Assembly: GCF_038396675.1 (NCBI RefSeq)
Contig: NC_088920.1
Span: forward strand, 63,482,501 to 63,546,500
Length of the DNA: 64,000 nucleotides
From: Hydra vulgaris
Taxonomy: Eukaryota; Cnidaria; Hydrozoa; Anthoathecata; Hydridae
Direction of reading: 5' to 3'
Made by a program: the position numbers and the translations under genes
Shown: in pieces, positions 25,055 to 58,700 of the stretch
How positions within the stretch are numbered: the first letter of the stretch is position 1
How the letters are laid out: the number at the start of each line of letters is the position of its first letter
Notes under the pieces: generated by a model
Told to the model about the DNA's origin: nothing
The model's database searches: none
Seen by the model: the letters and a program-made list of their open reading frames with translations, nothing else

Positions 25055-25630
25055 AATTATATAATTCAGCAAAGCAAGATGAAGGAAGTGAATTCCAAAG
25101 AAATAATGATTGAGAAAAAAACCTAGACGAATAAGAGTTTTTGGAGCGCTTAGGAAAAGTTACAGAAAAAGTATGAAACTTAATTGAATGACGAGTAATA
25201 CGAAAATGAATTTTAGTGTATGGCCCATAGACGCGAGCTCGTTAGGGCAGTGCCAGTTATAATATTTGTAAAAAAGAGAAAGAGAAGCATTACGACAATG
25301 TGATAATGGTTGAAGGTTGGCTGCAAGAACAGGTTCAACTATGTTTACATCGCGTTTTTGCACCTTGTCAAAAAGAGAAAGGACATCATTTGAAGATCCG
25401 CCCCAGATATGGAAACAGTATTTGATAAAAGGACGGATTTGAGATTTATAGAGAAAAAGAATAGAATCCAAAGTAAAAAAGTGACGAGCACAATAAAGAG
25501 ATATAACCTAAGCAGATGCTAATTTTGCAATGAACTTGATATACGGTTTCCAAGAAAGATCGTAGGTAAGAGTTAATCCAATTAGATGAAGGTTAGATGA
25601 CTCGTCGAGTACATCGCCATTCATATATAT
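25055..25630 (-). pseudogene. LINE reverse-transcriptase C-terminal fragment (left arm)
   Basis: Frame with DSILFLYKSQIRPFIKYCFH, WGGSSNDVLSLFDKVQKR and LAANLQPLSHCRNASLSLFY, preceded by LIGLTLTYDLSWKPYIKFIA. This is the region after the catalytic core of a jockey/I-like non-LTR reverse transcriptase, a different family from the CR1 copies. Truncated at both ends and carrying a stop. The right-arm counterpart (57,093-57,330 plus 58,381-58,700) is split by a CR1 insertion and differs by several percent. Confidence 0.75.
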
Positions 25631-25992
25631 ATATACAGGAAATATCTAGAAAACAAAATTGAGAACGTTAGTTAGAATAATTTCTTAGTTTTAACCATAG
25701 GGGATAAATTACCCCCACAACCAGAACTTAAAGATTTTTATCAACCAAGCAATGAACATAATACAGGATTAATATGTTGATACGTTACCAAAAAGTAAAC
25801 GTTTTTAAGATAAACTACAAAAAGTCAGCCTAACGCAATCCAGCCAGATGTCACATAAAGCTGACAGTTTTTTTAATTTTTAAAATTTTTTTTATTTAAA
25901 AAGTTTTTTTTTTATTTTAAGAATTTTTTAAAATTTTTTTATTTTTTTAATGAGCACGTTGATTTACTGCTAAAAAGTATAGTTACATTTAT

Positions 25993-26235
25993 TTACTTGA
26001 GCATAAATGTAGCTAGAACACTAATTCCAAAGATTGAAGCAACAAGAGCATAATATCTTGCTAAGGCAATAAGCTCAGGAGCAACATAGGTAAACAAGGG
26101 TTCAGGGATGATCGATAAAAAAACAGGATCAGCGTTCACACCAAGAGCGGTACCATATGCATTTATAGCAGCGTTTTTTTTCATTTCAGTTTGGTAACCT
26201 TGCTGGCCTACAGCAAAAAGAGCTGCATTGATCAA
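25993..26235 (-). CDS. Small hydrophobic ORF at the Polinton end (left arm), 80 residues
   Basis: Unidentified. The C-terminal third (LIALARYYALVASIFGISVL) is a probable membrane segment, and the N-terminal part is polar (GQQGYQTEMKKNAAINAYGT). The frame has no in-frame ATG at its start: a CCACCATGGA sequence just upstream is in another frame and meets a stop at once, so it is an exon or a broken ORF. It lies beside Polinton integrase remnants. The right-arm copy (56,481-56,723) differs at 8 sense sites in 243, six of them changing residues. It could encode a Polinton-associated membrane protein, but there is no match to a family I know. Confidence 0.4.
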   Translation of the reverse strand: MINAALFAVGQQGYQTEMKKNAAINAYGTALGVNADPVFLSIIPEPLFTYVAPELIALARYYALVASIFGISVLATFMLK

Positions 26236-26239
26236 TCCA

Positions 26240-26290
26240 TGGTGGTTTTTTACTGCTGCATGCCATGCAGCAGAAAAAAACCACTGTGCT
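26240..26290. repeat. Hairpin beside the small ORF (left arm)
   Basis: GGTGGTTTTTTACTGCTGC is followed by an inverted partner GCAGCAGAAAAAAACCACT. The right-arm copy (about 56,431-56,476) has better-preserved 19-bp arms. Confidence 0.7.
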
Positions 26291-26672
26291 TTTTACTGCT
26301 GCATGAAGCAATTAGGTATAACCAGCTTGAAGTTGTAAAGTTCATCCAAGTAAAAAATTTAATTATACTAGGCAAATTGAGGCTTTTAAAAAAGCTGTGC
26401 ATATTAAGTCATTAGAAATTGTACAATATTTGACTGATGAAAAATGTAAGCGGGATTATAGCTATATAACTTTAGCTGTGAGAAAAAAAAACAAAAATTT
26501 TTTTCTACCGCTATACACCCATATGTTAGATATTCATGCCTTGCTCTTAATGATGGTGCTCATGTTGAAACTACTGAGTGGACAACTAAATATAAACGTC
26601 TCTCTGAAATAGTAAAAAAATATCTTAAAACTGCAAAATCACTTATTGAACAAGTGTGTACTTGTAGATAAA
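26290..26672 (+). pseudogene. Ankyrin-like fragment (left arm)
   Basis: Pieces in different frames read LLLHEAIRYNQLEVVKFIQV and HIKSLEIVQYLTDEKCKR, followed by NDGAHVETTEWTTKYKRLSE. The L.EA...N.LEVVKFI spacing resembles ankyrin repeats. Frames shift at about 26,390, 26,490 and 26,540. It may be a Polinton-borne or captured gene. The counterpart is at about 56,040-56,420. Confidence 0.35.
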
Positions 26673-27133
26673 GATGGATTATAATAAAGCTCAAGAAGCG
26701 ATTGAAAAATTGAAGCATATTTTTGCTCATTATCAAGATATAACAAGATATTGAAAGATATATTGAATTTGATAAAATATAATATATATAATATTTTCAC
26801 TGCGAATCTTAAAGGCTGATCTAAATTTTTTTATAGCTTTATAAATGTTTGCTCTTTTCTTAATAAAAAATGATTCAGTCATCAAAATAATTTTATTAGA
26901 AATGTCTATTATTTCTGAATCAAAGTAAGACACATACAAATTTATATAACAAGTAACTTATGCAAATCTTGCACGGAGTTGTGATCTTTTTTTACCACAC
27001 AACTCGCTAACATACTTATCAAAATCTTTTTTGTTATCTTTAGCTAAGGTAGCTAAGGCGTTTGCTTTTTGTATTTTTTAATAACCTTTTCATTTTTATA
27101 TTTTAGACACGTCTTTCTAACTATAAGTTTATA

Positions 27134-56476: not shown

Positions 56477-56480
56477 TGGA

Positions 56481-56723
56481 TTGATCAATGCAGATCTTTT
56501 TGTTGTAGGGCAGCAAGGTAACCAAACTGAAATGAAAAAAAACGCTGCTATAAATGCATATGGAACCGCTCTTGGTGTGAACGCTGATCCTGTTTTTTTA
56601 TCGATCATCCCTGAACCCTTGTTTAACTATGTTGTTCCTGAGCTTATTGCCTTAGCAAGATATTATGCTCTTGTTGCTTCAATCTTTGGAATTTGTGTTC
56701 TAGCTACATTTATGCTCAAGTAG
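56481..56723 (+). CDS. Small hydrophobic ORF at the Polinton end (right arm)
   Basis: Counterpart of 25,993-26,235. Reads INADLFVVGQQGNQTEMKKN, then a conserved middle (LGVNADPVFLSIIPEPLF) and a hydrophobic C-terminus. Same length in spite of a few percent divergence. No in-frame ATG at the start. Confidence 0.4.
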   Translation: MINADLFVVGQQGNQTEMKKNAAINAYGTALGVNADPVFLSIIPEPLFNYVVPELIALARYYALVASIFGICVLATFMLK

Positions 56724-57089
56724 ATAAATGTAACTATACTTTTTAGCAGTAAATCAACGTGCTCATTAAAAAAATAAAAAAATTTTGAAAAGTTCTAAAA
56801 ATAAAAAAAAAACCTTTTTAAATAAAAAAAAATTCAAAAACTAAAAAAACTGTTAGCTTTATGTGACATCTGGCTGGATTGCGTTAGGCTGACTTTTTGT
56901 ACTTTATCTTAAAATTGTTTACTTTTTGGTAACGTATCAACATATTAACCCTGTATTTTGTTCATTGCTTGGTTGATAAAAATCTTTAAGTTCTGGTTGT
57001 GGGGGTAATTTATCCCCTATGGTTAAAACTAAGAAATTATTCTAACTAACGTTCTCAATTTTGTTTTCTAGATATTTCCTGTATATATA

Positions 57090-57330
57090 TATATGAATGG
57101 CGATGTACTCGACGAGTCATCTACCCTTCATCTAATAGGATTAACTCTTACTTCCGATCTTTCTTTTAAACCGTATATCAAGTTCATTGCAAAATTAGCA
57201 TCTGCTAAGGTTATATCTTTTTATCGTGCTCGTTACTTTTTTACTTTGGATTCTTTTCTTTTTCTCTATAAATCTCAAATCCGTCCTTGTATCAAATACT
57301 GTTTCCATATCTGGGGCGGATCTTCAAATT
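57090..57330 (+). pseudogene. LINE reverse-transcriptase fragment, part 1 (right arm)
   Basis: Frame NGDVLDESSTLHLIGLTLTS ... SFLFLYKSQIRPCIKYCFHI WGGSSN, interrupted there by the CR1 insertion. It continues at 58,381 with DVLSLFDKVQKR. Confidence 0.75.
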
Positions 57331-58380
57331 TTTTTTTTTTTTTTTTTTTTTTTTTTTTTTTTTTTTTTTTGCCATATAAATTTATTAAAGTCGTAAAGCA
57401 TAATATAAATACAAATAGCAGGGGCAAGAAGAAGACATAATTGGTCTTATCACCAAGCCCCTTAGTCTATACCGTAAATATAAGACAACAAAAATTTAAA
57501 AACGTAACACTATATAATATAAAACATTTTTATAAAGACTTTATAGAATAAAAATCATCGGTCCTAAAGTCCTACTTTAACTTTTTGTTTTTGTGTTGGT
57601 TAAGAAAAATTTTAAAAAAAGAAAAAAAGGAAAATGTACAAAGAAACTATATTACTAATAAGCAAGCAAGCAAATACGCATAATCCTGAAGCTTTCCTTT
57701 TACACCAGCATATACCTTTAAATATGTGAATAATTCTTATAAACCATAATTTTATATATATATATATATATATATTTTTTTTTTTTCAAGCCTCATTAAA
57801 ACTTCAGAAAAAGCTGAGCGCTACGTCGATCATCTGTAGTTTTTGCTTTAATTTATTCTTAAACTCATTTAGCATAGAAATTGTTTTAAGTTCATTAGTT
57901 AATATTTTATTCCATAATTTCGGCCCTCTAGTAGAAATTGAAAATTCGGTCGCCGCAAAATAACTTTTGGGTTGGATATAACTGTTATTTGAAAATCTGG
58001 TGAGATATCTATTCTGATTTATTTTGAATAATGGGTAAAAAATTTTAGGAGATATATTTTTATTAATTTTGAACATAAATATAAGAACTTGATAGACATT
58101 TAATTGATAAACATTCATTATATTTAAATTAACAAATAATGCTTGGGAGTGTGTATAACGGCCCACATTGGAAATGATTCTGATTGCATGCTTTTGTTTA
58201 TTAAATAGTTTTTTTATTTTATTTTTATTTGTACTGCACCAAGCAATATTTGCATAATTAAGATGGCAATGAATGAACGAGAAATATAAAAGCTTTAAGC
58301 AAGTTGGATTTAAAAAAGGCTTAGCTCTGCATAGCAGGCCTATGTTCCTTGAGATTGTATTTTCGAGATATTGATGTCCT
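57331..58380 (-). mobile_element. 5'-truncated CR1-type LINE inserted in the right arm only
   Basis: The minus-strand frame from about 58,365 to 57,804 gives SRNIGLLCRAKPFLNPTCLK, LLYFSFIHCHLNYANIAW, STRGPKLWNKIL: the C-terminal region after the RT core. The 3'UTR has the GGGGC/GCCCC hairpin at 57,421-57,461 and ends in a 40-nt A-run (T-run 57,331-57,370). It splits the LINE fragment of the arm. The empty site is seen in the left arm at about 25,385-25,400. No obvious target duplication. Confidence 0.8.
57421..57461 (-). repeat. LINE 3'UTR hairpin
   Basis: On the minus strand GGGGCTTGGTGATAAGACC...GTCTTCTTCTTGCCCC; the best-preserved example of the conserved block. Confidence 0.8.
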
Positions 58381-58700
58381 TTCTCTTTTTGACAAGGTGC
58401 AAAAACGCGATGTAAACGTAGTTGAACCTGTTCTTGCAGCCAACCTTCAACCATTATCACATTGTCGTAATGCTTCTTTTTCTATTTTTTAAAAATATTA
58501 TAACTGGCACTGCCCTAAAGAGCTCGCTTCTATGGGCCATCCACTAAAATTCATTTTTGTGTTACTCGTCATTCAATTAAGTTTCATACTTTTTCTGTAA
58601 CTTTTCCTAAGCGCTCCAAAAACTCTTATTCGACTAGATTTTTTCTTTGACCATTAGTTCTTTGGAATTTACTTCGTTCATCTTGCTTTCCTGAATCATA
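58381..58700 (+). pseudogene. LINE reverse-transcriptase fragment, part 2 (right arm)
   Basis: Continues DVLSLFDKVQKRDVNVVEPV LAANLQPLSHC and HCPKELASMGHPLKF. Carries a stop (IF*KYY) not in the left copy. The homology between arms ends near ATATAATTTATATG, where a TA tract starts. Confidence 0.7.

Follow-up and report, generated by a model that had tools for sequence, protein, structure and literature searches.

The stretch of Hydra vulgaris DNA analysed here (64,000 nucleotides, C1:63482501-63546500, referred to as the window) contains a large palindrome on chromosome 1 (contig C1 of 15), in which two inverted copies, L at 25054-41247 and R at 41394-58706, face each other around a 146-bp spacer and each carry a predicted gene for a secreted-type protein with IGFBP and antistasin domains. 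The feature is real in this assembly, the window is without any N, and the two arms differ very unevenly: a core of about 14 kb is almost perfectly identical, and the homologous DNA on both sides of it has diverged. Most likely, in our view, the gene palindrome is real and old, and its core was homogenised recently. The analysis is based on one assembly sequence, and the genome searched comprised 911,502,276 bases in 15 contigs.

An earlier note on this DNA had described a giant near-symmetric palindrome with an insertion of about 1.05 kb in its right arm, and self-alignment of the window bears this out. A single inverted match (25370-57347) covers the doubled 32 kb at 98.6%, and an additional outer piece (25054-25388 with 58372-58706) matches at 93.7%. 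The left arm measures 16,194 bp and the right arm 17,313 bp, including an insertion of 1043 bp (57329-58371). The sums of paired coordinates, which the note had put at about 82,641-82,716, run from 82641 to 82717 inside the insertion point and amount to 83760 outside it. Exact inverted identity continues unbroken for up to 6602 bp, far beyond chance. Within 239 kb of readable sequence (the window plus 100 kb per side) no other inverted pair of at least 1 kb at 90% identity or more was found, and inverted pairs of 1.0-2.0 kb at 82-89% are present. Beyond the outer edges the flanks are not mirrored. AT microsatellites lie near both edges (24347-24785 and 58698-58796), and the right edge abuts one of them. 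The parts of the palindrome are as follows:

25054 to 26959, forward strand: left arm, diverged outer zone; the end part of a long interspersed nuclear element (LINE) copy reaches to about 25631, and most of what follows is a second dispersed repeat
26960 to 40963, forward strand: left arm, near-identical core (substitution counts against the right arm; ends checked)
40964 to 41119, forward strand: left inner diverged patch; about 30 bp non-homologous, then 126 bp with 15.1% substitutions
41120 to 41247, forward strand: left innermost arm, perfect 128-bp inverted repeat, terminus found here only
41248 to 41393, no strand: central spacer, 146 bp
41394 to 41521, reverse strand: right innermost arm, exact partner of 41120-41247
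41522 to 41699, reverse strand: right inner diverged patch (alignment to the left arm)
41700 to 55716, reverse strand: right arm, near-identical core (alignment to the left arm)
55717 to 57328, reverse strand: right arm, inner part of the outer diverged zone (substitutions against the left arm)
57329 to 58371, reverse strand: 1043-bp insertion in the right arm alone, LINE-like, with a T run at its start (57329-57370)
58372 to 58706, reverse strand: right arm, outermost piece, its end meeting the AT microsatellite at 58698-58796

Divergence between the arms, which the earlier note did not report, falls into zones. From the outside inwards the outer 1.9 kb or so shows 21 substitutions in 327 columns (6.4%), 21 in 512 (4.1%) and 43 in 1059 (4.1%), hence 4-6% overall. 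The adjoining core holds only 4 substitutions in 12,514 counted columns, where about 510 would be expected at the outer rate; one of these lies in the first 389 bp and three in the following 12,125 non-microsatellite columns (493 expected). Four microsatellite arrays, which are not the same in both arms, were excluded from this count (1486 columns, 11 mismatches). Toward the centre the core ends at 40963 in the left arm and 41700 in the right, and in the inner patch that follows 19 of 126 aligned columns are substituted (15.1%; 87% identity by BLAST). The near-perfect core is thus flanked on both sides by diverged homologous DNA, and its identity extends over exons, introns and transposon remnants alike. 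A genome search with an 801-bp piece of the core returned two full-length copies, both in this palindrome (40 of 1581 candidates scored), and the inner patch is likewise low-copy, with four candidates.

The gene that the earlier note had placed in each arm, without naming it, was found again, and by its domains it belongs to the IGFBP-antistasin type. The two genes read outward from the centre and so form a divergent pair, and over the IGFBP-antistasin block they are identical at 601 of 601 bp. The gene models were predicted from sequence; their exon ends are approximate, and splice sites were only partly judged by eye. The genes and their nearest relatives are:

31519 to 38801, reverse strand: left-arm gene, six predicted exon pieces
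38688 to 38801, reverse strand: signal peptide exon of the left gene, recognised by eye
about 36503 to 36655, reverse strand: IGFBP domain of the left gene (Pfam, E 1.7e-7)
about 36331 to 36423, 36169 to 36261 and 35233 to 35322, reverse strand: three antistasin domains of the left gene (E 1.3e-8 to 1.5e-5)
31519 to 31581, reverse strand: last exon of the left gene, short and common to the paralogs
43859 to 51145, forward strand: right-arm gene, with mirror coordinates and identical exon matches and scores
5474 to 8333, reverse strand: paralogous gene on the left side of the palindrome, diverged (79% over the IGFBP-antistasin block)
58932 to 60582, reverse strand: diverged paralogous gene fragment with stops in the right flank (protein and self-alignment matches)

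Members of the family are spread along some 3.7 Mb of chromosome 1. A genome search with the joined protein gave 58 rows, each an exon piece rather than a gene, 50 of them on C1 at 62.72-66.45 Mb (ten in the arms) and the remaining eight on C3, C4, C9 and C12. Compared with the arms over the IGFBP-antistasin block, two neighbouring family genes reach 79% and 77% and two genes at 66.4 Mb 82% and 75%. The latter two form a second inverted pair of the same family (C1:66.4327 Mb, forward strand, and 66.4520 Mb, reverse strand), 85% alike over 831 columns and separated by about 19 kb; this may be an older pair that has not been homogenised recently.

Since the outer zone provides the rate against which the core is judged, its composition matters. 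A LINE family accounts for its first 578 bp. Of the 41 matching rows of an outer-zone query, with 40 of 8621 candidates scored, 38 are 87% matches elsewhere in the genome, every one confined to those 578 bp; the other three are the query itself, the right arm (95%) and a short inverted match lying within the right arm. In this LINE part L and R are 4-6% apart, and six other family copies differ from both by about 12-14%. The remainder had to be given up as DNA unique to the arms: most of a query without the LINE part (25660-27300) proved to be a dispersed repeat, with partial matches of 66-89% at other places (120 rows, with 40 of 111 candidates scored here and in what follows). The longest of these other matches spans about 1 kb at 76-78%; full-length matches to the query come from the two arms alone, at 94%. 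The junction between the LINE part and the second repeat is present in both arms at the same point. Two repeats joined at one point, in copies closer to each other than to any other scored copy, favour a single shared duplication and a common history of the outer zone in L and R; an origin from two unrelated transposon insertions is disfavoured on the same grounds.

LINE content, as had been noted earlier, was borne out by a reverse transcriptase match in a Pfam domain search of open reading frames (ORFs). The 17 arm ORFs tested, 16 of which come from the 117 left-arm ORFs of at least 45 amino acids, gave no Pfam match to Polinton proteins (PolB, integrase, capsid). The repeat at 25705-27300 and beyond, which takes in part of the outer zone and the start of the core and is mirrored in the right arm, occurs as numerous diverged, incomplete copies (66-89%) across many chromosomes; the ORFs tested within it gave no Pfam match, and it is possibly what had been taken for a Polinton. 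An ORF that overlaps the 1043-bp insertion (57804-58481) has no Pfam match and resembles by eye the other LINE ORFs of the window; inspection of the printed sequence by eye revealed no obvious target-site duplication around the insertion. Outside the palindrome, the left flank holds long reverse-transcriptase-like LINE reading frames, named by eye, at 9966-11150 and 21557-23009. A direct tandem array, about 2.4 kb in size, lies further out on C1 (window coordinates -63212 to -60768).

At the centre the earlier note had seen a 400-bp miniature inverted-repeat transposable element (MITE). The 409-bp centre does have long terminal inverted repeats (128 bp, perfect), but a multi-copy family to which it could belong did not emerge. 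The only candidate in a DNA search of the genome was the centre itself, its 23-base terminus occurs once per strand genome-wide, at this locus only, and a 22-base terminus pattern with up to three mismatches likewise found no other place in the genome. These pattern searches were added since DNA searches skip very common words. On these results the centre cannot be assigned to a recognisable MITE family, although it may represent one with strongly altered ends. Of the earlier picture, therefore, the palindrome with a gene in each arm stands and the MITE family at its centre does not.

The pattern is best explained, with a probability of somewhat under 60% in our estimate, by an old inverted duplication of a gene segment whose core was recently homogenised by gene conversion between the arms. 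A segment of at least 16 kb with one gene of the local IGFBP-antistasin family would have been duplicated in inverted orientation long ago, giving rise to the divergent gene pair, and the arms would then have diverged. Pairing of the arms with each other or with the sister chromatid would have allowed a break in one arm to be repaired from the other, and conversion could in this way have copied about 14 kb of one arm onto its partner, erasing the differences in the core and sparing both of its ends. A near-perfect core between diverged ends, with a one-sided insertion outside it, fits this course of events. A recent duplication of the whole palindrome would give even divergence and not the zones observed. 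Under selection on the gene it would be mainly the exons that stayed alike, and such selection does not explain a core identity that spans introns and transposon remnants. The sequence itself shows the inverted duplication in the assembly, the uneven divergence, the insertion in one arm, the flanks without mirror symmetry and the diverged paralogs; conversion rather than another copying event, its direction, the number of events and the existence of the arms as two physical loci are inferred.

Several observations weigh against this explanation. The inner patch (15%) is more diverged than the outer zone (4-6%), so that a single age does not suit the palindrome as a whole. A single conversion event does not account for the difference; it would take a partial conversion at an earlier date, a higher rate of change close to the centre, or different origins for the two zones. 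As it consists largely of dispersed repeats, the outer zone is a weaker yardstick of age and weaker proof of one duplication. The few remaining core differences sit in or near microsatellites, three of them within 19 bp (39059-39077), and consensus errors are common in microsatellites. Near-total identity of the core would also be expected if the assembly had used one sequence twice.

This last point leads to a reading that we regard as unlikely, in which the palindrome is real and old and its core only apparently identical, having been overwritten or filled in during assembly, Nanopore gap filling or short-read polishing. Few reads may be long enough to cross the identical 14 kb and reach unique DNA at both ends. 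HydraT2T_AEP, which this assembly appears to be from its size and chromosome number (912 Mb, 15 chromosomes), is described as built from HiFi contigs by Omni-C scaffolding, Nanopore gap filling and short-read polishing, and for the AEP haplotype assembly 1523 gaps are reported to have been filled with raw Nanopore reads before short-read polishing (PMC12220107). Against such overwriting stands the fact that the core microsatellites differ between the arms. Moreover, arm differences of several percent are normally kept apart by HiFi reads. Slightly less likely still is a recent template switch, in which the outer zone and inner patch go back to two short, older inverted repeats on either side of the site, and the whole 14-kb core between them was copied in a single event of break-induced replication; the palindrome would then be new rather than rejuvenated. 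Such a switch yields the same sequence pattern, the inner and outer zones differ in divergence as separate repeats might, and the dispersed repeats that make up most of the outer zone are a possible source of an inverted pair; their recognition slightly lowered our confidence in duplication followed by conversion and slightly raised that in template switching. It requires, however, two independent inverted pairs exactly at both ends of one segment, and both the low copy number of the inner patch and the two-repeat junction shared by L and R count against it, as does the greater likeness of L and R to one another than to any copy scored. Fold-back molecules can occur in long-read data, and an almost perfectly identical core is what they would leave. 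A fold-back read would nevertheless produce symmetry up to the tip and mirrored flanks, in place of the diverged patch near the tip and the diverged outer 1.9 kb, and a haplotype join would produce even divergence and matching flanks. The diverged core ends, the insertion in one arm and the non-mirrored flanks contradict both, and we rejected such an artefact as the main explanation of the whole palindrome, leaving it a very small probability.

Should the old, conversion-homogenised palindrome be confirmed, an early-branching and largely clonal animal would offer a place to measure arm-to-arm conversion, at a locus where the diverged ends and the microsatellites serve as markers and make it measurable. 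Sex chromosomes are where large gene palindromes with nearly perfect arms have been studied best. It is tempting to speculate, though we think it improbable, that the mostly clonally budding Hydra uses autosomal gene palindromes as self-templates, which would keep duplicate secreted-protein genes intact and identical without sex, in parallel to what has been proposed for Y palindromes. For users of short-read data the locus is a warning, as such reads cannot distinguish the two arm genes. Our literature searches found no paper on palindrome gene conversion in Hydra vulgaris or on cnidarian inverted duplication with gene conversion, and among the papers on invertebrate inverted duplications or autosomal palindromes with gene conversion none concerned Hydra by title; the main text of the assembly paper contains no word beginning with "palindrom" or "inverted" and no "segmental duplication" (PMC12220107).

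The Hydra palindrome would be a large further case of a kind already known, inverted gene pairs with conversion-homogenised arms: its paralogs lie on facing arms with a short spacer, and near-identity that includes non-coding DNA is bounded by diverged homologous ends. On the human Y chromosome, conversion tracts in palindrome P6 are reported with a mean of 2068 bp and a maximum of over 9 kb (PMC3723533). P6 shares with the Hydra locus large near-identical arms, attributed there to gene conversion, and a spacer, but it lies on a sex-limited chromosome and has larger arms and a larger spacer, whereas the Hydra palindrome lies on chromosome 1 and its core of about 14 kb exceeds the reported tracts (PMC3723533). 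It would therefore take several overlapping events, or a mechanism that produces long tracts, to account for the Hydra core. The palindromes of the willow W chromosome likewise contain long, highly conserved stretches (20 kb, with evidence of conversion) that affect only limited parts of the arms, although they belong to a sex-determining region and have four arms, compared with two on chromosome 1 in Hydra (PMC7023750). Closest in kind are the inverted paralogous gene pairs of Caenorhabditis, with near-perfect facing arms for which gene conversion has been discussed as a mechanism (Zhao et al. 2007, PMC1803023). The worm pairs are divergent or convergent and the Hydra pair is divergent, and both combine facing paralogs of near-perfect identity with a short spacer and arms more alike than other relatives. 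The worm arms are short (2207 bp for F44E5.4) and their retention across species is reported; the Hydra structure, known from one genome, has arms of about 16 kb that include transposons and microsatellites (PMC1803023).

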